Source: Deltaproteobacteria bacterium (GTDB lineage Bacteria; Bdellovibrionota_C; UBA2361; OMII01). Taken from it: DNA of 33,198 nt. The notes under the pieces were generated by a model. The model saw only the letters and a list, made by a program, of their open reading frames with translations. It was not told the DNA's origin and did no database searches. Where the stretch lies: contig CANIHJ010000015.1 of the NCBI GenBank assembly GCA_947467385.1, forward strand, positions 1 through 33,198. Reading direction: 5' to 3'. Position numbers and translations under genes: made by a program. This document shows positions 21,463-31,648 of this stretch, in pieces; positions within the stretch are counted from its first letter, which is position 1, and each line of letters begins with the position of its first letter.

Positions 21463-21840
21463 TTACTCCGTTTGCTCCTTTTCAAAAACCAAGGCTTCGA
21501 TCTGACAAACCAAGTCATTGAATTTACAAGGCTTTACAATCACTTTCGTGCATCCTGCCTGCTCTGCCTCCTGGTGCGCATGGGGATCATCGAGGGCTGT
21601 AAACGCCACAATCGGCACGGTAACACCGCGATTGCGCATCTCCCTGACGCACGCCTGACCCGTCATCGCCGGCATCATCAGATCGATGATAATAACGTCC
21701 GGCCGCGATGACCCTAATTCGCGCAGGGCGGAGACTCCATCGCAGTGACGGATAACCTCAAATCCGCGCCCTTCGAATATAGTGTTTACTATGTCGAGGG
21801 CCGACGCGTCGTCGTCGATGACAAGGATGCGGCTACTCAT
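21463..21840 (-). CDS. stand-alone response-regulator receiver protein
   Basis: 125 residues, a single CheY-like receiver with no output domain. The phosphorylation site is Asp 53 (VIIIDLMMP), the acidic pocket Asp 9-11 (VIDDD), the switch Thr 81 (AFTALDD) and Lys 103 (VIVKPC). All are intact, so it should be phosphorylated by a histidine kinase encoded elsewhere and act through protein contacts. It is transcribed away from the FHA/T3SS operon, and the 288-bp divergent region holds two DNA dyads. A role in regulating the secretion genes is possible but unproven. No clear ribosome site precedes the ATG. Confidence 0.92.
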   Translation of the reverse strand: MSSRILVIDDDASALDIVNTIFEGRGFEVIRHCDGVSALRELGSSRPDVIIIDLMMPAMTGQACVREMRNRGVTVPIVAFTALDDPHAHQEAEQAGCTKVIVKPCKFNDLVCQIEALVFEKEQTE

Positions 21841-22128: not shown

Positions 22129-23478
22129 ATGTTTGCGCTTGAGATCACTTTTAAGGGCGAAAAGCCCTCCACGGAGACGGTTTTCATCCGTCGTCCGTTG
22201 GCTGTTATCGGCGCAGATGAGGCGGCGCACGTGATCGTCGATGAGATGCGCTCTCTCGGATACAACCTGCTTATTAGTCGCGATGTAGGGAGAAAGTTCA
22301 CCCTCACGCCGATCAACACCTCAAGCGACGGCGCCCAACCCTCCTTTCTTGACGGCGTCTACGAGGGGGAATCGAGTGTCGACCTCGGCCCGGTCAAGTT
22401 TCACTTCGTGGCGATCGATGGCGACCTGATGCTTCGTGAGACTGAGGCTCCTGATAGGGCTGGGGCGAGAATTCTGCGCCAGGCAGCAACGAGCAAGGCC
22501 CCCCTGTACCCGGCGCTCATCGTCACCTCCCAGCCGCGCGTTGTTGTGTCGTTCTCTCCAGATCAGCCGGTGCTCGTTGGGCGATCGCGCCAATGCTCGC
22601 TCCGGCTCGATAATGCTGCTATCTCTTCGCGCCACGCCCGCGTCGGCTACGAGGGCGGAAAGTTTTGGGTGGAGGACCTTGGCTCAAGCAACGGAACCTT
22701 CGTCAACAACCAGCAGATCAGCGGCCGCGTTAACATAGACCCAGGCGCTCACATCTCGTTTGGCAAGGAGGTCACCGCGCGCGGAGTCGTATCCTCAGAG
22801 CAGGCCTCGGACGTCTCTGCAGGCGTAAGCCTCTCAAGCCCCAAGGCGGTCAGCAAGGAGAAGCGCTACCCGATTCTGGTCTCGCTCTCAGAGAGCGCCC
22901 GGCCGGCCAAGATTGTGCTCAATGCAGGTGCGGTCATCTCGCTTGGGCGGGATCCGTCGAGCGACATGTGGCTCGGGGCTCCTCACGTGTCTCGGCGCCA
23001 CTGTGCCGTCGAGGTGACGAAGAGCGGCGTCGTTCGAATCACGGACTGCAGCACTAACGGCACGGCTTACGACGGCGGCATGCTGCGCCGCGACCAAACT
23101 TTCGAAAGCTCCGACAAGCCAATCGTGCTCGATTTCGGGGGCAATGTGACTGTGGCCCTGTGCTTCTCGGAGAAGGACGAACAGGCGTTCACCAATGCGG
23201 GCGGCTCAAGCGCGACCTTCCGATTGCCACAGGGTGCGGAAGCAGCATCTTTCGGCAAACGTGCGGCGAACACCCGCTCGCGGCGGACAACCGCCTGGCT
23301 TCAGACCCCGGCGGAGCTCCTCGCCTTGGGAGAAGACACCGGCAAGCGTGGGGGCTTACGGCAGCTCTACGCGCGACTGTCCTGGCAGGGAAGGCTCGTG
23401 CTCGGACTGGCCGCCGTAGGATTAATAGGGGTGTTCGCCCTCGTAGTGGCTATTTTAGTTTTGGGATTTCAGAGGTGA
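22129..23478 (+). CDS. membrane-anchored protein with two canonical FHA domains (SctD-like cytoplasmic region)
   Basis: 449 residues from the ATG at 22129; ATG 22093 and TTG 22069 are also in frame and none has a good ribosome site. An N-terminal region (about 5-100) looks like a degenerate FHA fold. FHA domain 1 (about 135-215) has VGRSRQCSLRL, SSRHARV and SSNGTFV. FHA domain 2 (about 255-345) has LGRDPSSDMWL, VSRRHCAV and STNGTAY. Both keep the Arg, Ser, His and Asn-Gly residues used to bind phosphothreonine. A basic linker leads to one membrane segment (about 422-446) at the extreme C-terminus. SctD of type III systems also has cytoplasmic FHA folds before its membrane segment, but its periplasmic ring domains are absent here. 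It precedes sctJ by two genes. Confidence 0.8.
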   Translation: MFALEITFKGEKPSTETVFIRRPLAVIGADEAAHVIVDEMRSLGYNLLISRDVGRKFTLTPINTSSDGAQPSFLDGVYEGESSVDLGPVKFHFVAIDGDLMLRETEAPDRAGARILRQAATSKAPLYPALIVTSQPRVVVSFSPDQPVLVGRSRQCSLRLDNAAISSRHARVGYEGGKFWVEDLGSSNGTFVNNQQISGRVNIDPGAHISFGKEVTARGVVSSEQASDVSAGVSLSSPKAVSKEKRYPILVSLSESARPAKIVLNAGAVISLGRDPSSDMWLGAPHVSRRHCAVEVTKSGVVRITDCSTNGTAYDGGMLRRDQTFESSDKPIVLDFGGNVTVALCFSEKDEQAFTNAGGSSATFRLPQGAEAASFGKRAANTRSRRTTAWLQTPAELLALGEDTGKRGGLRQLYARLSWQGRLVLGLAAVGLIGVFALVVAILVLGFQR

Positions 23479-23498
23479 CGTGCGGTTTTTGGCTAAGG

Positions 23499-23517
23499 GC
23501 TGTTCGTAAGGAACAGC
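23499..23517 (+). other. 7-bp perfect stem-loop between the two FHA genes
   Basis: GCTGTTC (23499-23505) and GAACAGC (23511-23517) pair perfectly around GTAAG. The element lies in the 74-bp gap between the FHA genes and ends about 36 nt before the second start. No U-run follows directly. It may be an mRNA processing, stability or attenuation element that sets the level of the downstream secretion genes. Confidence 0.5.
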
Positions 23518-23552
23518 TACCGGTTTGTGTGATACTGAGTGAAAGGTGAACT

Positions 23553-24794
23553 ATGGCGAGCGAAACGAGCGATCTGACATTTGTGCGATGCCCCTCATGC
23601 AGGAGCCTCGTGCCCGCGAGCGCAACCCGCTGTCGCATCTGCAACAACCCGCTCGACGCCCTCAACAAGGATGAGGGCGAAAGTGAGGCGCCCAAGCCAA
23701 GCGGCGGCCGAGTGCGCCAAAAGACGATCACCGCCTCTCCGCAGGAGGTTGAAGCGGCGATTCAGTCCGCGCAGGCCGCGCGCCCAGCGCCGCCACCACC
23801 CCCTGCGCCTCAGCGGACGGCAGCAGCTCCGGCGCAGGATGCTGTCGATGATCTGGACCCGCTTGGGGCTTACCTTCAGGAGATGGAGACTGGAGCTCCC
23901 GCAGAGGCTCCCGTCAGGGAGCCCGCTCAGGCGGCATCACCGATGCCCGCGGCGGACGATGATGACGACCTATTCGACCTCGACATCTTCGACGACCCCA
24001 TAGGCGAGGGGCCGGCACCCATCCTGAAAACGACGCGAGAAGAGGATCCCTTCCGGGCGGAGCTTCCGCTCGACGAGCCTCCCGCTGCACCGGAGCCGCC
24101 AGCGCGCAAGCCGGTCGAGGCGACTCCGCGTCCCGCCGAGCGACCGCGCCCTGCTGCGCCGCCGCAGCAGGCCAAGCCAGCAAATAACGAGCCTCGCCGA
24201 AACGAAGGCCGGCCACAGCACGATTCCCAGCAGGGGCAAAACCGCAGCGACCGAATGCAGGATCAGCGGCAGACAAAGCCATCCTCCGCACCGCAGCAGC
24301 GCTCACCTGAGCCGAACAGGCCTCGCCGGGATGACAGGGACAATCGCCGGCCAGAGCGGCCACCTCGTCAGGATCCGCCGAGGCGGGAGCCTGAGCGCCG
24401 GGAGGAGATGAGCGACCGCGCCGCAGTGACTGGTCCGAAGACTGGCAAGATGCGCCCAGGCCGCCTCTTCGGCTGGCTCGTGAGCTACGAAAACCCCGAC
24501 GGCCGTGCCATCGAGCTGCGCGAGGGCAAGTTCTTTGTTACTGCCTCGAGCATCAAGGGCTCCGACCTCGTGCTTGAGGATCCTAGCATCTCCACCCCGC
24601 ACGCCCTCATGTCGATCAGCGAATCGGGTCTGCTAGTGCAGGACCTCATGAGCGACAACGGCGTGTTCGTGCGGGTCCACGGCGACGGCGACTACCGCAG
24701 GGAGGACGGCATCATTCGGGTGGCGCACGGCGACTGGATTCGTTTCGGCGACGTCGATTTCCTGGTTATCGTCGTTCCGTCGTCTGCGAAGTAG
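23553..24794 (+). CDS. zinc-ribbon / disordered / FHA-domain protein
   Basis: 413 residues. The N-terminus has a four-cysteine zinc ribbon (CPSC at 13-16, CRIC at 27-30). Residues about 45-305 are low-complexity: Pro/Ala-rich, an acidic patch (DDDDDLFDLDIFDD), then Arg/Pro/Gln-rich. The C-terminus (about 312-408) is an FHA-like domain (IKGSDLVLEDPS, STPHALMSI, SDNGVFV). The usual Gly-Arg motif of the phosphothreonine loop is replaced by Lys-Gly, so binding may be altered. It has no membrane segment. AAAGGTGA just upstream gives a good start. It lies 14 bp before sctJ and is likely co-transcribed with it, so a scaffold or sorting-platform role in the secretion system is inferred. Confidence 0.8.
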   Translation: MASETSDLTFVRCPSCRSLVPASATRCRICNNPLDALNKDEGESEAPKPSGGRVRQKTITASPQEVEAAIQSAQAARPAPPPPPAPQRTAAAPAQDAVDDLDPLGAYLQEMETGAPAEAPVREPAQAASPMPAADDDDDLFDLDIFDDPIGEGPAPILKTTREEDPFRAELPLDEPPAAPEPPARKPVEATPRPAERPRPAAPPQQAKPANNEPRRNEGRPQHDSQQGQNRSDRMQDQRQTKPSSAPQQRSPEPNRPRRDDRDNRRPERPPRQDPPRREPERREEMSDRAAVTGPKTGKMRPGRLFGWLVSYENPDGRAIELREGKFFVTASSIKGSDLVLEDPSISTPHALMSISESGLLVQDLMSDNGVFVRVHGDGDYRREDGIIRVAHGDWIRFGDVDFLVIVVPSSAK

Positions 24795-24808
24795 GTTATA
24801 AGGATCTC

Positions 24809-25663
24809 ATGCGTCCAGCGCGTTTTCTCCTGACTTGTCTTCTCACCGCATCTGTTCTGGGATGCAGTGAGTCTCAGGTTGCGGACGACCTGGCGCAGCG
24901 AGACGCAAACCGCATCGTGGCCGAGCTCCGCTCGCGAGGAATCGAAGCCGTCACCTCGAAGGAAAGGGGAGCCAAGGGCCGATACTCAGTGTCTGTGCCC
25001 AGCTCACGCTTCGGTGATGCGGCGATGATCCTCAACGATCTAGGACTCCCTGGCGAGGCGAAGCCCTCATTCGCAGACCTCGTTGCAGCCTCGGGAATAC
25101 TACCCAGCTCCCGCGAGGTCGAGGCGATGCGCCTCGACCGGGCGTCAGCCGCGGAGGTGGAGAGCCTTCTCGCAGAGCACCCGGCAGTCGTTTCGGTGGG
25201 GGCTATAGTCCGCATGCGGTCCCTTCAGGGCAGCGACGCCCCGTCGGTCTCGGTCATCATCCAGAAGCGCGAGGGATCGGCGCTTGACGAGCTGGCAGTT
25301 CGCGATATTGTCCTGCGCTCCGTTCCGGGGATGAAGCCGGAAGCGCTTATGGTGACGATCGCAGAGCAGCGCCCGGCGCCGACGTTAGTGGGAATTCCGG
25401 CGGCGGACTCGCTTGTCCCATTCCTTGTTTTTTGGCGGGTGCCCCAAGAGGACTACGGGGGACTCTCGATCCTGCTGCTCGGCCTGCTCGCCGCGATATC
25501 TGGCTTGGCAGCTCTCGGGGGCTACATATTCGGGCAATATAACCTGAGCCGGCATACGGACGCGCTGCGGCTCGAGGCGATCGAGGCCACGAAGGGCGAT
25601 CCTGAGTTTAGATATATCGACTCTCGCGGAGAGAGGAATGAAGATGAGGAGGACGAGCCATGA
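24809..25663 (+). CDS. sctJ: type III secretion inner-membrane ring lipoprotein SctJ
   Basis: 284 residues. The lipoprotein signal MRPARFLLTCLLTASVLGC puts the lipid on Cys 19. The two ring-building domains carry family phrases: ANRIVAELRSRGIEAV, FGDAAMILNDLGLPG, GILPSSREVEAMRLDRASAAEVESLL and VVSVGAIVRM. One membrane segment (about 219-241, LSILLLGLLAAISGLAALGGY) precedes a cytoplasmic tail. A lipidated N-terminus with one C-terminal membrane span is characteristic of the injectisome SctJ (YscJ/PrgK), not flagellar FliF. It forms the 24-fold inner ring around the export gate. AAGGA lies 5-6 nt upstream. Its stop overlaps the next start (ATGA). Confidence 0.92.
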   Translation: MRPARFLLTCLLTASVLGCSESQVADDLAQRDANRIVAELRSRGIEAVTSKERGAKGRYSVSVPSSRFGDAAMILNDLGLPGEAKPSFADLVAASGILPSSREVEAMRLDRASAAEVESLLAEHPAVVSVGAIVRMRSLQGSDAPSVSVIIQKREGSALDELAVRDIVLRSVPGMKPEALMVTIAEQRPAPTLVGIPAADSLVPFLVFWRVPQEDYGGLSILLLGLLAAISGLAALGGYIFGQYNLSRHTDALRLEAIEATKGDPEFRYIDSRGERNEDEEDEP

Positions 25664-25884
25664 GCGCATCGGCCTGGGAGCAACTGAATCCGATCGAGCG
25701 CGCCCTTGTGGCGGTTGCCGTGCTGATTGACGGCGCGGACGCGGGCAGCATACTGCTGCTCGACTCAAAGCGCGGCGAGCTGCTCAGGGAAGCGGCGCTG
25801 TACTTCGGCGGCTTGGATCTCGACGCGCGACTGCCATATATGGGAACGCTCCTGCGCCGGGCTGTTGAGGACCAGGAGGGATAG
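25660..25884 (+). CDS. 74-aa protein between sctJ and the sctO-like gene, unknown
   Basis: 74 residues, no recognised family. The ATG overlaps the sctJ stop (ATGA), implying translational coupling, and the stop is 4 bp before the next start. The sequence is predicted mostly helical (LNPIERALVAVAVLIDGADAG, ELLREAALYFGG), acidic, without signal peptide or membrane span. In other type III loci the position after sctJ is often taken by sctK or sctL, sorting-platform proteins that are much longer. This could be a reduced equivalent; that is inference from position only. Confidence 0.7.
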   Translation: MSASAWEQLNPIERALVAVAVLIDGADAGSILLLDSKRGELLREAALYFGGLDLDARLPYMGTLLRRAVEDQEG

Positions 25885-25888
25885 GGAT

Positions 25889-26245
25889 GTGGCCAACGAG
25901 CGGGACGATCTCGAATCCTACCGTGCACAGGTCGTCGCGGAGCTTGAGTGCCGCGTCGATCGGGTCAGGCGCATCGATGGCGAGATCGCAGCTGCTGATT
26001 TTCGCCTTGAGTCGCTTCGGGCAGGAGCCAGAATTCCCTCCGGCAACACTGGCAGGTTGCTTACCCAGGTGGCGCTGCGCGACAAGATCAGGCGCGAGAG
26101 GCTGCAACTGGAGCGCGAGCGCACGGAGGCTGTGGAGGACGTCAAGCGCGCCCAAGAGAGGCTTGAGCAGGTGGATGGTGAGATTGAACAGGGGGACGGC
26201 GGCTCGCATGAGCTCGACGATGCCCCAGAGGGAGACGAGGACTAA
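25889..26245 (+). CDS. coiled-coil protein, SctO (YscO/FliJ)-like
   Basis: 118 residues from the GTG at 25889 (GGAGG about 9 nt upstream); longer readings of this frame overlap the 74-aa gene. It is almost wholly charged heptad-like helix (ERDDLESYRAQVVAELE, then LRDKIRRERLQLERERTEA and KRAQERLEQVDGEIE) with a kink near PSGNTG at about 50-55. This two-helix coiled coil of about 120-150 residues is the SctO/FliJ pattern. Those proteins are stalks that insert into the secretion ATPase and contact SctV. Assignment rests on shape and its place directly before sctQ; there is no distinctive motif. The tail is acidic. Confidence 0.6.
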   Translation: MANERDDLESYRAQVVAELECRVDRVRRIDGEIAAADFRLESLRAGARIPSGNTGRLLTQVALRDKIRRERLQLERERTEAVEDVKRAQERLEQVDGEIEQGDGGSHELDDAPEGDED

Positions 26246-27283
26246 GTGAGCGGGCAAGAGCCGATAGAGAGCGGAGAGGCACAAGAGGTTCAGCCCTGGG
26301 AGCCCCAGCGCATGCTGAGGCGTATCTCAGAGCTGGAGGCGGCGCTGTCGCGTGGCTTCCTCAGGTGCCGGCCGGAGAAGTGGTTCCCGGGGCTCTCCAC
26401 CCAATGGATGCCGGTGGCGCACGCCTTCGGCTGCGAGATCGCCGTGACGGACATAAAGCCGGTGCTGGCGGAGCCGCCGAGCAGTGATGCCGCTTTTGTT
26501 GGCGTTGTGTCGGGCGAGGAGATGACGCTCGTGCTCGACGCGGACTCCTCATCGGCAATGCTCGGCGAGGCGCTTCCGGGCACTGACGGCTTCGCGGCAT
26601 CGGTGGCACAGGAGTACCTCATGCGGAGGCTGTTCTACTCGCTCGTGACCTCTTGGACGGGCCCTGAGATCTCATCCGTTTCGTTCCGGGGAAGGCTTGC
26701 CTCGCAGCCTGTTAGGACGGCAGGAAGCGTTAAAGTCACGTGCTCGCTTAACACCTCGCAGGTGGTTATCTGGTTCGGGCTAGGAGAACGGATGCTCGCA
26801 ACCCTCGACGGGCTGTGGCGACGCCAGGTTCAGTCGACTGCCCGCGCCGGCGCCGGCAGCTCGCAGATTCGGCTTGAGGTGGCGCAGCTCGGGGTTCCGC
26901 CGCAGATGCTCTCGGACTACCTAAAACCGGGAACCGTCATCGATCTAGAGGTACGGGCGAGCGACATGCTTACGGTTCGCGCAGGCGGCAAGGCCTGGAT
27001 GCCTGGCCGCATGGTCAACGTGAACGGCAAGCTCGGATGCGAGATAGTGCCCGGTGCGGTCGCGGCGCCCAGTGTAGCAGAGGGAACTACCCGCCTTTCG
27101 ATCGAGCTGGGCAACCTGCCCGTCGAGGGTAGCCAGATAGCTGAGTTCGGCCAGGTGGGTGCCGTAATCGTTACAGGAACCCCGATTGGGCAGGAGGTTG
27201 TGCTCTCAATAAACCAGGAGCCGGTGGGTCGCGCTCGGCTGTGCGTATACGAAGGCCGTTTCGCCATCGAAGTTATCCCGTAA
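26246..27283 (+). CDS. sctQ: type III secretion sorting-platform protein SctQ
   Basis: 345 residues from a GTG immediately after the preceding stop (0-bp gap, GAGG 6 nt upstream). The C-terminal part holds two SpoA domains. The first (about 205-270) runs from IRLEVAQLGVPPQML through LKPGTVIDLEV to NGKLGCEIV. The second (about 280-345) runs from LSIELGNLPVEGSQI through IGQEVVLSINQEPVG to YEGRFAIEVIP. SpoA domains are shared by SctQ, FliM and FliN, and form the cytoplasmic ring or pods that sort substrates. A divergent N-terminal domain (about 1-200) precedes them, as in full-length SctQ (about 300-350). This is good evidence that the locus is a secretion system. Confidence 0.88.
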   Translation: MSGQEPIESGEAQEVQPWEPQRMLRRISELEAALSRGFLRCRPEKWFPGLSTQWMPVAHAFGCEIAVTDIKPVLAEPPSSDAAFVGVVSGEEMTLVLDADSSSAMLGEALPGTDGFAASVAQEYLMRRLFYSLVTSWTGPEISSVSFRGRLASQPVRTAGSVKVTCSLNTSQVVIWFGLGERMLATLDGLWRRQVQSTARAGAGSSQIRLEVAQLGVPPQMLSDYLKPGTVIDLEVRASDMLTVRAGGKAWMPGRMVNVNGKLGCEIVPGAVAAPSVAEGTTRLSIELGNLPVEGSQIAEFGQVGAVIVTGTPIGQEVVLSINQEPVGRARLCVYEGRFAIEVIP

Positions 27284-27443
27284 GCCTCGACAACAGATTG
27301 ATATAACAACACTATCGATCAAGACCCCCAGAACGACAGCGGGATGACCCTTCTCGGAGTGCTGCCTTTCGTGCTACCTAGAGGCATGCGGGGGAGGTAG
27401 ATGACTGCGCCCCCTATTCAGTATCTTTCATTCGGGAGGTGTG
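27284..27443 (+). other. gap between sctQ and the DUF3313-like gene
   Basis: 160 bp, the largest break inside the T3SS gene series. It begins with a TTGAT/ATCAA inverted repeat around a 15-nt spacer near 27298-27322. A GGGGAGG with a 5-nt spaced ATG (27401) is present, but the frame behind it overlaps the next gene out of frame and looks non-coding. A separate promoter for the lipoprotein and export-gate genes may lie here. Confidence 0.4.
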
Positions 27444-28166
27444 ATGGTACGCGCGTTCTTTTCAAGCTTCAGCTCACTGGTGTCGGTCTCTGCTGCCGTT
27501 GTAATTGGAACGGGGCTGGTGGGATGCCGGGCCTCAGCCGCTCCCGACGCGGGCTTCATCGATCAGCCTCAACTCATGCACCAGGACGACAAACTGCCTT
27601 TTGACGCGGTTTGGTTTAAGGACGGGGTTGATTACTCGAAGTTTAAGACGGTGTACATCGCTCCCATAGACACGACGCACCTTCTCCAGCAGGACTGGTG
27701 GGACAAGGCCAACTTTGGTGCGGGCAGCCAGGAACAGCAGGCCGAGGAACTCGCTGAGTACCTGCGGAATCAGGTAAAGCAGCAGTTCGTGGATGATGAT
27801 GAGAACCGCTACTCGGTGGTGGACACGCCAGACAAGGATAGCCTCATAGTTGAGCTGGCGATCGTAGAGGTCGTCCCGACCAAGGTATGGCTCAACACGA
27901 TCGGGTACATCGTCCTGGGCCCTCTTGATCAGGGCGTCACCGCGTTCGAGGGCCGCTTCCGGGATGGTGCAACCCAGGAGGTCATCGCCGAGTTTAAGGA
28001 CCGCGAGTTCGGGCAGATGGATATCGTCAGTATCGCCGACCTTCAGTGGAACAGGCACTCGCGCCATACCTGCGAAGCCTGGGGCGATCAGCTTGAGGAG
28101 GTTCTGTACCGCAAGCCTGACCAGACCGTCTCGCGCATGTCGACGGTAACGCTGCGCCCCTGGTAA
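27444..28166 (+). CDS. DUF3313-like lipoprotein inside the T3SS locus
   Basis: 240 residues from the ATG at 27444 (GGGAGG four nt before); a GTG one codon upstream is too close to that site. A lipoprotein signal ends in LVGC at about residues 25-28. The mature protein has the start typical of DUF3313: FKDGVDYSKFKTVYIAPIDT, then a helix AEELAEYLRNQVKQQF and strands RYSVVDTP and LIVELAIVEVVP. It would be anchored in the inner or outer membrane. DUF3313 function is not known. Its location between sctQ and sctR is odd; it might stabilise the basal body or replace a pilotin, but that is speculation. Confidence 0.78.
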   Translation: MVRAFFSSFSSLVSVSAAVVIGTGLVGCRASAAPDAGFIDQPQLMHQDDKLPFDAVWFKDGVDYSKFKTVYIAPIDTTHLLQQDWWDKANFGAGSQEQQAEELAEYLRNQVKQQFVDDDENRYSVVDTPDKDSLIVELAIVEVVPTKVWLNTIGYIVLGPLDQGVTAFEGRFRDGATQEVIAEFKDREFGQMDIVSIADLQWNRHSRHTCEAWGDQLEEVLYRKPDQTVSRMSTVTLRPW

Positions 28167-28229
28167 GCGGCGATCACGCCAGAACATTCCGTCTAGGCGG
28201 GGCGCTCCATCAGCTCTAGTATAGAGCGC

Positions 28230-28817
28230 ATGGACAGCTCCAATACATTCGCGCTGGTCGTCACGCTGCTTCTTTTCTCGTCCTTCGTCAAATACGCGAC
28301 GGTGCTCTCCGTGTTCCGTTTCGGCACGGGACTGGTCGGGCTTGAGTTCGGGTTTGTATGCCTGGTGGCCGCCTTTGGCCTGGCGGTTGTCACGATTCCG
28401 GCGGAGCTCAAGCAAACCGGCTTCCCGGGATCGTTCTTCTCTTCGGTCCCCGACCGCATCGATCTCTCTCAGGTTACTAAGGCGCTGGTTCCGCGCATGG
28501 CGGCAAGTGTTGACCCGGCGGTGGCAGAGGGCCTGTTCGGACAGCAGGGACGGGATCGTGCAAAGATTCAGGAAGACCTATCGCGACTGCTTCCCGCCTT
28601 CATATTCTCGGAGCTCAAGCTGGCGCTGACTCTTGGGCTTCTGCTTCTCATCCCCTTTGTGCTTGTGGACCTGCTTACGGCCCACGTTGTGGCGCTGGTG
28701 GGGATGCAGCAGCTGCCGGTGCCGGTTGTGTCGATGCCGCTCAAGATACTGCTCTTCCTGGCCGTCGACGGCTGGGGCATGCTGGCGGCGAAGATGATGG
28801 GCGGGGGAGGCCAGTAG
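28230..28817 (+). CDS. sctR: type III export gate protein SctR (FliP family)
   Basis: 195 residues, slightly shorter than the usual 215. The N-terminal membrane region (LVVTLLLFSSFVKYATVLSV) is followed by a loop. The highly conserved C-terminal block is present: RLLPAFIFSELKLALTLGLL, LIPFVLVDLLTAHVVALVGM, then MPLKILLFLAVDGWGML. SctR forms the pentameric core of the export gate with SctS and SctT in the inner membrane. The ATG has only a weak ribosome site. Its stop is 2 bp before the sctS start. Confidence 0.92.
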   Translation: MDSSNTFALVVTLLLFSSFVKYATVLSVFRFGTGLVGLEFGFVCLVAAFGLAVVTIPAELKQTGFPGSFFSSVPDRIDLSQVTKALVPRMAASVDPAVAEGLFGQQGRDRAKIQEDLSRLLPAFIFSELKLALTLGLLLLIPFVLVDLLTAHVVALVGMQQLPVPVVSMPLKILLFLAVDGWGMLAAKMMGGGGQ

Positions 28818-28819
28818 CC

Positions 28820-29062
28820 GTGGACCCAAAGCTTTTGTCGGTCGTCGATCAGAGCCTGCGCGTGCTGGTGCTTGTTATCGTGCCCACTCTCATCGTGCCG
28901 CTGGCCGGGCTGGTTATCTCTCTGCTTCAGGGCATGCTCGGAATTCGGGAGGAGGGCCTGCAGTACTCTGTGCGGACCCTCGCGATGGCAGGCGTTATAC
29001 TCGTTTTTGGCGCCTCGGCCGCGCGCTCGCTCGTTGAACTCATGCAGCTTGCGCTGAGGTAG
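28820..29062 (+). CDS. sctS: type III export gate protein SctS (FliQ family)
   Basis: 80 residues from a GTG, with GGGGGAGG about 10 nt upstream inside the end of sctR. It has two membrane hairpin helices (about 14-38 and 53-76). The loop contains ISLLQGMLGIREEGLQYSVRTLA, which matches the FliQ/SctS pattern of a glutamine-bearing loop between the helices. Four copies wrap around the SctR-SctT core. Length is near the usual 86-89. Confidence 0.9.
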   Translation: MDPKLLSVVDQSLRVLVLVIVPTLIVPLAGLVISLLQGMLGIREEGLQYSVRTLAMAGVILVFGASAARSLVELMQLALR

Positions 29063-29063
29063 C

Positions 29064-29642
29064 GTGACAGTTGCCATCCTGCTTCTCTCCACGATCGGCC
29101 CGGTGCTCCTAGCTTCAATAACCATCGCACTCGCCCTGCTGTGGAACGGAGGCGGCCCGATAGGGGCCGTGCCACTCCTTAGCCTGGCAGCCCTCGTTGC
29201 ATTGTGGCCTACAGTAACTGGAGCAAGTGTTGCGATCCTTTGCCGCTGGATCTGCCCGGGCGCTTGGGGCCGGGCAGCGGCGCTCGCTGCAGCGCTGTGG
29301 GGGCTTTTGTCGATGATAAGCTCGCCATCGGCGCTGGCAGCGATGGTGACGGTCTCTCGGGATATCTCGGCCGGGAGGCCCATGCCAGTCGATGCCCTAG
29401 CGCTCCTCAAGGAGCTTTCGCTGATCGGGGCGCTCTCAGCTCTCGTCGTAATGTCGGCCGTCCTTGTCTTTGAGGTCCCGCTGCGCATCGTTGTATCGCG
29501 GCGGTCCGCAGCGCTTGAAGACGGCCTATCACGTAGCATCCGCGGGGCGCTGACAGCCGTTATTATCCTCATCGGCTGGGTCGCAATCGAGGACGCCGCA
29601 GTCAGTCGCCTTGCGATGGTCCTTAGGATGCTGAGGGGCTGA
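29064..29642 (+). CDS. sctT: divergent, short SctT (FliR family) candidate
   Basis: 192 residues from a GTG 1 bp after the sctS stop (GAGG close upstream). It is almost entirely hydrophobic, with about five or six membrane helices. The SctT family usually has 250-265 residues, so it is about a quarter shorter. The core family phrases are only faintly recognisable (MPVDALALLKELSLIGALSALVVMSAVL). Assignment therefore rests on the fixed R-S-T-U gene order and membrane topology. SctT caps the export-gate helix and contacts the inner rod. Either it has diverged strongly or the gate has been reduced. Confidence 0.6.
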   Translation: MTVAILLLSTIGPVLLASITIALALLWNGGGPIGAVPLLSLAALVALWPTVTGASVAILCRWICPGAWGRAAALAAALWGLLSMISSPSALAAMVTVSRDISAGRPMPVDALALLKELSLIGALSALVVMSAVLVFEVPLRIVVSRRSAALEDGLSRSIRGALTAVIILIGWVAIEDAAVSRLAMVLRMLRG

Positions 29643-29643
29643 G

Positions 29644-30240
29644 ATGAGTGACGCCCTGGAGATCCCCAACGCGGAAAATCTGCGCGCCCTTAAGGAGCAG
29701 GGGATTATTTTCAGCAGCCCGCTGGCGATCCGCCTCACAACCGTTGCCGTGCTTCTTTTGACGGGTGTCGCCCTGGCTCGCAACCCGGTTGGTCCCCTCG
29801 TCCCACCTGACCTGGCAACGGCACAGGAGCTCGGGCTGCACGCCCTTAAGGCAGCGGCGGCAGCTTCTACGGCGTGCGCTGGCACGATCCTGCTCCTGTC
29901 GCTCATTTTCAATGGCTTCTTCCTCTCGGCGGGACTCCTTTCTCCTCGAAAAAGGGGGCCGGATAAAATAAACCCACTAGTGCGCCTAGGGCAGGGAGCA
30001 TTGGGGGCTGCGCTCGGGCTCGGGGCGCTCTTCGGCTGCTCAAAATCCCTCTTTGGGGCCCTGTACCTGGGATCGCAGGAAGCAGGGGGGCAGCCTGCAG
30101 GCCTGGCTTTGCTGCGGGCTTCGTTAGGAGCCCCATTCACTGCCGTCATTGTTGGAACTGTAATTTTGGCTATACTGGTGGCTGGAATCGCTCGGGCCCG
30201 ATTCGTGTTGCGGAACCGGGTTGCGAAGTCATCATCATAG
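29644..30240 (+). CDS. sctU: SctU (FlhB family) candidate lacking the autocleavage domain
   Basis: 198 residues; the family normally has about 350. The start (IPNAENLRALKEQGIIFSS) matches the family N-terminus, a Pro, Leu-Arg, Lys-x-Gly pattern before the first membrane helix. Four membrane segments follow (about 28-46, 68-95, 119-140 and 163-184). The second-to-third loop has SPRKRGPDKINPLVRLGQG, matching the K-x-NP region of FlhB/SctU. The protein ends 14 residues after the fourth helix (RARFVLRNRVAKSSS). The whole cytoplasmic domain with the Asn-Pro-Thr-His self-cleavage site is absent, and no reading frame nearby encodes it. The start overlaps no gene but follows sctT by 1 bp. Confidence 0.65.
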   Translation: MSDALEIPNAENLRALKEQGIIFSSPLAIRLTTVAVLLLTGVALARNPVGPLVPPDLATAQELGLHALKAAAAASTACAGTILLLSLIFNGFFLSAGLLSPRKRGPDKINPLVRLGQGALGAALGLGALFGCSKSLFGALYLGSQEAGGQPAGLALLRASLGAPFTAVIVGTVILAILVAGIARARFVLRNRVAKSSS

Positions 30241-30258
30241 CGGCGAATAGGGCCTTGT

Positions 30259-30507
30259 ATGTCTCAAACGATCGGCGGTCCGCCGGATCCATTTTCTCTC
30301 TCCCCGTTGCTCTCTCTGCTTCCGTCACTGGGGAAGATCAGCCGGCTTGAGGCGCTTGTCTCATCGCTCTTCGCCCGAAGCGAGAAAGTCTCCGCCCTGA
30401 GGGCTCAGGCGGAGAGCAGGGAGCAGGAGCGCAGGTTTGCGGCCGAGGAGGCCATGCTTCGCCAGATACTCGATTGGCTGGCGGTGAAGCCCGGAGGTGC
30501 CGAGTAA
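30259..30507 (+). CDS. 82-aa helical protein after sctU, unknown
   Basis: 82 residues; no family recognised. A Pro/Ser/Leu-rich start (PPDPFSLSPLLSLLPSLG) is followed by an amphipathic charged helix (VSALRAQAESREQERRFAAEEAMLRQ). No signal peptide is present. Its stop and the next start share one base (TAATG). Type III loci often have a small needle protein or needle-chaperone gene (sctF, sctE, each about 65-90 aa) next to a TPR chaperone gene (sctG). This pair has that shape, but the sequence carries no decisive motif. Confidence 0.65.
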   Translation: MSQTIGGPPDPFSLSPLLSLLPSLGKISRLEALVSSLFARSEKVSALRAQAESREQERRFAAEEAMLRQILDWLAVKPGGAE

Positions 30508-30941
30508 TGGATATGCCGGCAAAAAATGGCGCAGAGCTGCCGCGCCGAAGCTATTCTGCAGACGAGGTTGCGGACATCTATGAGCTGGGGAAGCTTTGGC
30601 TTGAGTCCGGCCAGCTTAAGCGGGCCGAGGCGCTGATGACTGGCCTAAACGAGGTCGCCCCCGACTTTGCCCCGGCCTGGCTCGGAACGGCATTTCTGCG
30701 TTCAGTGTCGGGCGACTACGAGGGCGTTGCGGCAGCGGCGAAACGCGCTCTCAAGGTGAGCCCCGACTGTGTTGAGGCGATGATGTTCATGGCGGTGGCG
30801 GCTCTCGCCCTCAAGGACGTAACGATGGCGGGCACCTACCTCGGCGAGGTAGGCGACCGCATCGAGCAAGGGGTAGTCTCTAATCCCAGCGTCTCAAGGC
30901 TGTACAAGATGCAGCTAGCGCGGTATCAAAACCGCGAGTAG
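30507..30941 (+). CDS. TPR protein, type III chaperone-like
   Basis: 144 residues from the ATG at 30507, with GGAGG 9 nt upstream and a one-base overlap with the preceding stop. It contains about three tetratricopeptide-like repeats: ADIYELGKLWLESGQLKRAEAL (about 19-40), then AWLGTAFLRSVSGDYEGVAAAAKRAL and AMMFMAVAALALKDVTMAGTYL. Soluble TPR proteins of this size are class II translocator chaperones (LcrH/SycD) or needle chaperones (SctG) in type III systems. Position after the export-gate genes and the coupled 82-aa gene supports that role; partner identity is unknown. Confidence 0.72.
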   Translation: MDMPAKNGAELPRRSYSADEVADIYELGKLWLESGQLKRAEALMTGLNEVAPDFAPAWLGTAFLRSVSGDYEGVAAAAKRALKVSPDCVEAMMFMAVAALALKDVTMAGTYLGEVGDRIEQGVVSNPSVSRLYKMQLARYQNRE

Positions 30942-30996: not shown

Positions 30997-31039
30997 GCTT
31001 GCGACCATCAAATAGTTATTCTTGACCAGAGGGCTCCTT

Positions 31040-31648
31040 ATGAACAGCTTGCGTTGCCTCAGTCGACTAGCCTGCGCCGCGTTATTCGCCATCTTCTGCG
31101 CGTCGCTCCCAGCAGCGGCAGAGGACATCAATGAGGTGTTCAAAAAAGTTAACGAGTACGTTCAGCAGAAGAACTACCCGAAGGCGATGGAGGAGCTGCA
31201 GTGGGCGCAGAAGGAGCTTGAAAAGCTTAACCAGCAGCGGCTCTCAGAGCTGCTTCCCAAGACGATAGAGGGGTTCGTCGGCGAGGAGACTGAGGTCCAG
31301 TCGGCCATGGGATTCACCTCAATCGAGCGCCAGTACAACAAGGGGGATCAGGGAATTCACCTCTCAATCGCAGGCGCCGGGTCAGCCGGCGGAGGTCTTG
31401 CCGGACTGGCAAAGATGGGAATGATGATGGAAGGCTCCCAGAGTGGCAAGGACCAGTTCCGGGTCGACGGGCGCACCGCGAGCCTCGAGACCTCAGGCGC
31501 TCCTGAGCTGACGGTTTTCCTTGAGAGCGGCTCGATGCTTCAGCTGCGCTCAAGTGATGAGTCGGTCGATAGCGCAACGCTAAAAAAGTTCGCGCAGGGT
31601 CTCAAAATCGGCGAGCTCGATGATTACCTGAAGGGCTCAAAGGGCTAG
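31040..31648 (+). CDS. periplasmic protein of unknown function
   Basis: 202 residues from the ATG at 31040 (AGAGGG 7 nt upstream); a TTG six codons earlier is not needed. It has a clear signal peptide (LSRLACAALFAIFCASLPAAA, cleavage before EDINE). The mature part begins with a helical, TPR-like hairpin (VFKKVNEYVQQKNYPKAMEE, then LQWAQKELEKLNQQRLSELLP). A beta-rich domain follows, with a Gly/Met-rich loop (about 118-135, GLAGLAKMGMMMEG). Similar small periplasmic proteins with an N-terminal helical pair and a Gly-rich loop occur in proteobacteria, but I know of no assigned function. It may be a free-standing gene or the last member of the secretion locus. Confidence 0.75.
   Translation: MNSLRCLSRLACAALFAIFCASLPAAAEDINEVFKKVNEYVQQKNYPKAMEELQWAQKELEKLNQQRLSELLPKTIEGFVGEETEVQSAMGFTSIERQYNKGDQGIHLSIAGAGSAGGGLAGLAKMGMMMEGSQSGKDQFRVDGRTASLETSGAPELTVFLESGSMLQLRSSDESVDSATLKKFAQGLKIGELDDYLKGSKG

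Follow-up and report, generated by a model that had tools for sequence, protein, structure and literature searches.

The Tad-like Kil pilus of Myxococcus xanthus and its type III secretion system (T3SS), T3SS*, were reportedly described by Thiery et al. in 2022. T3SS* is needleless (PMC8460266, PMC12075869); at prey contact it co-localizes simultaneously with Kil and depends on Kil for its recruitment, and how, and whether physically, the two cooperate is still an open question (PMC12075869). In M. xanthus, Kil and T3SS* are encoded in separate gene clusters, T3SS* with SctN and Kil with its own secretin, KilC. The 'Myxo' group of non-flagellar T3SS is devoid of secretin, needle, tip and translocon, and is divergent from the injectisomes of pathogens (PMC3459982). 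The separately encoded Kil and T3SS* are the closest known counterparts of the system examined in this study, a T3SS-like operon carried on a 33,198-nucleotide stretch of DNA (hereafter the window), which is the entire contig C15 of a metagenome-assembled genome (MAG; 1.33 Mb, 61% complete).

The window belongs to a class of uncultured 'Deltaproteobacteria/Bdellovibrionales' MAGs, 46 genomes of which (20 of high quality) were examined. Gene calls beyond the window were made with a simple open reading frame caller, and gene counts across genomes are based on profile searches. Between positions 22129 and 30941, thirteen genes without internal stops lie on the plus strand (Table 1), in the order given by an earlier reading of the window made without database searches (hereafter the sequence-only reading). 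That T3SS-like series was borne out, its families being matched directly or via orthologues. The same gene order was found in about 20 genomes, among which protein identity falls to 20-40%; hence, the gene set did not come together by chance. Our analyses suggest that this operon probably encodes the type III portion of a composite machine, part Tad pilus and part type III system, which is general across the class. On the best reading, the export gate of this machine is eroding and is optional in this lineage. Below, "window-type" denotes this system, and "B" a second non-flagellar T3SS of the same genomes.

The other half of the system was found elsewhere in this genome, on contig C4, where CpaB/RcpC, a CpaF-type T2SSE ATPase, TadB and TadC (two T2SSF proteins), SctV and a HEAT-repeat protein are encoded (PF00437, PF00482 twice, and PF16976). 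Together with Flp, detected in a relative (PF04964, 1.2e-12), the Tad pilus set of CpaF, TadB, TadC, CpaB and Flp is present; the Flp pilin was not seen in the window's own incomplete genome, and absence from a single such genome is weak evidence taken alone. In about ten genomes of different families, all from outgroup orders, the Tad-SctV genes and the window-type genes form one contiguous operon. Its 5' part reads PP2C-FHA-Ser/Thr kinase-TadZ-Flp-CpaB-CpaF-TadB-TadC-SctV-HEAT pseudokinase and is followed by FHA1-FHA2-SctJ-74aa-SctO-SctQ-SctR-SctS-SctT-SctU-82aa-TPR. The join between Tad-SctV and FHA1 was read in L082, L083, L084, L086, L115, L116, L118, L120, L124, L190 and L191, and the HEAT-FHA1 join was also read on the shorter contigs L111, L119, L121, L122, L123, L289 and L290. 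SctV lies directly 3' of TadC, and this TadC-SctV junction recurs in about ten genomes. In the taxonomic order of the window, the unit is generally split into two loci with the same families, those on C4 and C15 included; in G014, about 60 kb of a single contig separates the two halves. The Walker A motif of CpaF (GETGTGKT) was intact in 12 of 12 proteins examined, and the Flp pilins carry a GASxxEY-type motif with the prepilin motifs intact. The Tad half of the relatives also contributes, besides Flp and TadZ, a PP2C phosphatase, an FHA protein and a Ser/Thr kinase with active-type motifs, which the adjacent HEAT protein (the pseudokinase) lacks.

Some further genes were observed around the Tad half. 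Large sensor/response-regulator proteins are encoded 5' of the PP2C gene (L175:10441-13902, L177:15944-19899, L184:14186-16731), and a small partner protein, also encoded upstream of PP2C, shares with them the motif SLSQLRAxVGGRFQ. On the 3' side of the Tad-SctV locus of G021, L081:15017-16516 encodes a protein of 499 amino acids (aa) whose N-terminus weakly resembles TadE (E 0.006) and which is a candidate for the tip of the pilus.

Throughout the class, a Tad pilus and T3SS parts are thus encoded either in a single operon or in the two halves of that operon, which is strong genetic evidence that they form one machine. The sequence-only reading had proposed a reduced export machine or one locus of a split system. 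The split was confirmed by the C4 locus, and comparison of gene order in relatives revealed a conserved order that is continuous with the Tad operon in the outgroups; what had been missed was the Tad pilus partner carrying SctV. A composite Tad-T3SS machine is therefore a better description than a reduced export machine on its own. A plain reduced injectisome was rejected because the missing partner genes are the Tad genes of the same operon; what the window is missing is not the remainder of an injectisome. A literature search that had most subscription journals outside its reach found no account of a Tad-SctV operon. The system adds to the cases in which type III components have been combined anew with a different machine.

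Like Kil and T3SS*, the present system combines a Tad pilus with T3SS parts, here with no dedicated secretin found and no needle match at the locus, and has many FHA proteins. Unlike them, it has Tad and SctV/J/Q/R/S/T/U in one operon in the outgroups, no third secretin was found, the window's order is without a window-type SctN, and its SctV falls outside the Myxococcota sequences sampled. With the 'Myxo' group (PMC3459982) it shares the distance from pathogen injectisomes, the lack of a recognized secretin of its own and, as far as the locus shows, of needle, tip and translocon, whereas the Tad genes in its operon, the missing C-terminal domain of SctU and the members that have lost the entire gate set it apart. 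The Tad/Flp (type IVc) pilus likewise has Flp pilin, CpaB, CpaF, TadB, TadC and TadZ-like genes in an operon; in the present operon, however, SctV directly follows TadC and is itself followed by T3SS genes, and no dedicated CpaC/RcpA secretin was found. Injectisomes such as that of the Mycetohabitans SctJ-V locus have homologues of SctJ, Q, R, S, T, U and V, but here the window's order is without window-type SctN/SctL, no SctC and no SctD with a periplasmic domain were found, and SctU has no autocleavage domain. A hybrid operon in Myxococcota was also considered and dropped: when 96 genomes were searched with SctV (49 matched), no Tad gene such as TadC or CpaF was recognized next to SctV in the neighborhoods of the best non-flagellar matches, which this check covered, or in ten wider regions.

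SctN, SctV, SctL, a secretin and a needle are not encoded in the window, as had been noted from sequence. Family scans of the window proteins gave no match to the needle protein SctF at the locus, and no recognizable full-length SctD homologue was found in the window. FHA1 occupies the place of SctD, which the sequence-only reading had taken to be replaced; it stops right after its transmembrane helix and FHA2 has no such helix, so neither provides the periplasmic ring domains of SctD. A PF00263 search of 11 genomes recovered exactly two secretins per genome and no dedicated SctC or CpaC/RcpA. Judged from flanking proteins at the inspected loci, the two are of the GspD type (pseudopilins and GspE/F-like proteins) and the PilQ type (PilM/N/O-like proteins). 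Genome-wide searches also recovered a third SctN, besides the flagellar and B-type ones, together with FliH/SctL in 12 genomes. All of these lie outside the window's order, and their SctN is 54-91% identical to the query L252, itself one of the loci of these 12 genomes; within that order it was found in 0 of 29 genomes. This SctN/SctL cassette is a candidate component of the window-type system. In L251, L252, L253 and L254, it reads FliH/SctL, SctN, a protein of about 370 aa and a protein of about 300-330 aa, the last two without clear family; it is confined to outgroup genomes and is unlinked to any export gate.

Of the export gate, SctR and SctS were matched directly in the window, SctT and SctU through relatives, and SctV on C4. 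SctT and SctU are indeed reduced, as originally read (Table 1), and all 19 aligned window-type SctU proteins stop no later than the linker leading to the autocleavage domain. Within the genus, SctT and SctU evolve fastest (28-39% identity, versus 42-78% for most other genes), while SctR and SctS show 38-62% identity and are intact in most genomes. In G009 (91% complete; L186 with L187) and G004 (L291), SctR-S-T-U are cleanly absent between the DUF3313 gene and b82 (the 82-aa protein), and FHA1, FHA2, SctJ, the 74-aa gene, SctO, SctQ, b82 and TPR are retained; despite this loss, G009 retains its Tad-SctV locus (L187). In G039 (94% complete), the only SctR genes are flagellar and B-type (L279, L182), and the genes from Tad-SctV through SctQ are kept (L124, L178). 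G029 likewise has only flagellar and B-type SctR, with FHA1, FHA2, the 74-aa gene and SctQ present. Elsewhere, the gate has moved rather than been lost, L181 and L281 carrying SctR-S-T-U-b82-TPR as a separate locus. In G013, a locus away from FHA1 encodes an SctR of only 174 aa (L180:8598-9122) with SctS, a 153-aa protein, b82 and TPR, possibly an intermediate stage of gate reduction. L192 and L193 (G029, G031) are minimal loci that encode FHA1, FHA2, SctQ and the 74-aa protein; SctJ was not found beside these genes.

These genomes form a natural series, from a full gate with a candidate SctN, through a reduced gate without SctN, to no gate. The series indicates which parts are kept in the pilus partnership (FHA1, FHA2, SctQ, the 74-aa protein and, mostly, SctV, SctJ and TPR) and which are dispensable (SctN, SctL and SctRSTU), and the question posed by Kil and T3SS* thereby becomes testable by structure prediction and mutants.

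FHA1 was found in 44 of the 46 class genomes and in all 20 of high quality. When GTDB genome contigs were scanned with FHA1, 30 records contained a relative of nearly full length; they carry the labels Deltaproteobacteria, Bdellovibrionales, Oligoflexia, Dadabacteria and other bacteria. After these records, the E-value drops sharply from 2e-59 to 7e-16. Window-type SctR proteins form one clade, with the window sequence inside (bootstrap 98, Shimodaira-Hasegawa-like approximate likelihood ratio test [SH-aLRT] 96). Window-type SctV proteins are likewise united in a single clade with SH-aLRT 99, in a tree with some long branches and arbitrary rooting. They are separate from flagellar FlhA, from the SctV of B and of Myxococcota and from three reference injectisomes, and do not lie within the Myxococcota T3SS clade as sampled, in which M. 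xanthus was not identified. The claim of a divergent, non-flagellar system was thus upheld: both proteins fall outside the flagellar, B, Myxococcota and injectisome sequences sampled, and relatives carry intact copies of the genes; accordingly, the outcomes that would have contradicted the sequence-only reading were not realized. The same genomes hold a separate flagellar clade of SctR and SctV, and parts shared with the flagellum were ruled out by their separate flagellar FlhA/FliP/FlhB genes. Three SctV/FlhA genes are present in the window's own genome, one together with flagellar genes on C7, one on C4 and one on C40 with another SctJ and SctQ; well-assembled relatives have three SctV and usually three SctR each, namely flagellar, B and window-type. 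A pairing of the window operon with the C40-type SctV, suggested by their occurrence on a single contig of G024, was dropped because outgroup operons carry the C4-type SctV within the window-type operon.

How the composite machine may work can be outlined from these gene sets. SctJ would form a ring in the inner membrane at the base of the Tad pilus, and SctQ, SctO and the 74-aa protein a cytoplasmic platform below it. FHA1 and FHA2 would link this platform to phosphorylation signals of the kinase/phosphatase set, SctV would bridge to the Tad platform, and CpaF with TadB/TadC would drive Flp pilus assembly at the type III base. Where SctR-S-T-U survive, they may pass SctV-docked cargo to the pilus base, with the proton gradient as the drive because no SctN of this system was seen in the window's order. 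By analogy, the likely role is a contact-dependent action at surfaces, resembling that of the Kil pilus and T3SS* of predatory myxobacteria. A more far-reaching reading, to which we give somewhat less than even odds, is that the Tad pilus machine has as its base a type III ring with an SctV and SctQ platform, that its gate is optional and being lost, and that the type III parts have been reused to provide a scaffold and receive signals instead of exporting proteins.

Several observations weigh against the composite machine. The relatives are almost all MAGs, as is the window's own genome; the two halves are unlinked in the window's own order; co-occurrence is the sole basis for assigning the third SctN/SctL cassette; the functional comparison with Kil and T3SS* is by analogy; and operon fusion is no proof of a single physical complex. 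Furthermore, an outer-membrane channel of its own was not found, which leaves the exit of the pilus from the cell unexplained. The pilus of the same composite machine might exit through a borrowed secretin, either GspD of type II or PilQ of type IVa, which we consider rather unlikely. The presence of exactly two secretins per genome, at gsp-like and pil-like loci where inspected, would fit such borrowing, as would the presence of CpaB, the usual periplasmic partner of the Tad secretin; a direct link is lacking, however, and the PF00263 search could miss a Tad secretin that has diverged strongly.

A serious contender, in our judgement little short of an even chance, is that the type III parts are only the structural and signalling base of the Tad pilus, with SctJ/SctQ/SctV forming a ring and platform by which pilus assembly is positioned or gated, and SctR-S-T-U vestigial and without export. 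SctRSTU are absent from G009, G004 and G039 and were not seen for G029, while FHA1, SctQ and their neighbors remain; the missing autocleavage domain in all window-type SctU examined, the fast evolution of SctT and SctU and the absence of window-type SctN/SctL from the window's order point the same way. On the other hand, SctR and SctS are well conserved in the genus, and the outgroups have longer gates, the third SctN, SctL and a FliJ-like SctO, which argues for ancestral export. That an independent non-flagellar T3SS, split over loci, exports alone while the Tad genes by SctV are a separate neighboring pilus operon is distinctly improbable. Homologues of SctV, SctJ, SctQ, SctR, S, T and U are all encoded, and SctN/SctL occur unlinked in the outgroups; yet genomes of different families share the TadC-SctV junction and the joined gene order, only GspD and PilQ secretin types and no periplasmic SctD domain were found, and the gate was lost while the SctV-Tad unit stayed (L187 with L186). 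Reduced SctT/SctU and the lineages without SctN or gate might even suggest a decaying relic of little function, but we give this hardly any credence given intact frames, conserved order, strong conservation of FHA1, SctQ, b82 and TPR, and FHA1 in every high-quality genome.

Table 1. Features of the window operon and its surroundings
Feature	Position	Strand	Description
Single-domain response regulator	21463..21840	-	divergent from FHA1; possible regulator
FHA1	22129..23478	+	449 aa; FHA domains (3e-32), one C-terminal transmembrane helix, no periplasmic domain; occupies SctD place
FHA2	23553..24794	+	weak N-terminal zinc ribbon, low-complexity middle, C-terminal FHA/YscD_cpl domain (1e-6)
SctJ	24809..25663	+	inner-ring lipoprotein; lipobox VLGC, YscJ_FliF domain, transmembrane helix, acidic cytoplasmic tail
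74-aa protein	25660..25884	+	all-helical; conserved class-wide; AlphaFold2 pLDDT (predicted local distance difference test) 95.5
SctO/FliJ-like coiled coil	25886..26245	+	about 119 aa in this frame; open frame from 25727
SctQ	26246..27283	+	cytoplasmic ring/sorting-platform protein; two FliMN_C stretches (FliMN_C 3.3e-17)
DUF3313 lipoprotein	27441..28166	+	DUF3313 2.3e-14
SctR	28230..28817	+	export-gate subunit, window-type clade; FliP 8.9e-24
SctS	28820..29062	+	export-gate subunit; Bac_export_3 2.5e-9
SctT, reduced	29064..29642	+	192 aa versus 251-308 aa in outgroup orthologues
SctU	29644..30240	+	198 aa; transmembrane part alone, no linker, no FlhB_C autocleavage domain
b82 (82-aa protein)	30259..30507	+	predicted helical hairpin; retained even where SctR-U lost
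TPR protein	30504..30941	+	TPR 2.5e-8; weak match to SctY/SycD-type chaperones; retained even where SctR-U lost
Conserved neighbor	31034..31648	+	signal-like N-terminus; in several genomes of genus; possible accessory gene
Further loci paired with joined operons			L175/L188 (L082), L176/L189 (L083), L177 (L118), L178 (L124)

When the families were checked with profile hidden Markov models, FHA1, FHA2, SctJ, SctQ, DUF3313, SctR, SctS and TPR were matched directly, and SctO, SctT and SctU only through orthologues at the same positions: L084 for SctO (FliJ, 1.6e-10) and SctU (PF01312, 6.7e-23), and L082 for SctT (PF01311, 29.4 bits, cut-off 27.8). A genome search with PF01312 also placed window-type SctU loci of several relatives above the cut-off. 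SctJ matched YscJ_FliF (2.7e-11) and, below its curated cut-off, TIGR02544 (1.4e-21), which together with the lipobox marks an injectisome-type inner-ring lipoprotein. In the predicted zinc-ribbon/FHA protein, FHA2, the C-terminal domain was confirmed and the zinc ribbon was weak (E about 0.03). A fold search with the 74-aa protein gave no significant match, pieces of FliG being among the matches at E 4-10, and a FliG N-domain was rejected accordingly. For b82, identification as a needle or as YscE was rejected: the model is of low confidence, the YscE match is non-significant and b82 persists without the gate. The sequence cluster of the response regulator contains genes adjoining FHA1 in relatives.

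The gap between SctQ and SctR holds variable inserts, among them the DUF3313 lipoprotein, which is probably accessory because it is found here in only part of the genus, and an extra 476-aa HTTM-like membrane protein (G010, L043:12367-13797); in G015 (L053), several unrelated genes are inserted. System B occurs in most class genomes and has a split SctU (L087, L088 and L089 of G014, G010 and G032): its transmembrane part and its FlhB_C part are proteins of their own, and between their genes lies one for a roughly 1000-aa GAF/PAS histidine kinase. Separate FlhB_C proteins lie near this other T3SS or elsewhere in these genomes. The SctV, SctJ and SctQ genes of B are located elsewhere, adjoining a sigma-70-family factor (C40, equivalent to L040, in the window's own genome).

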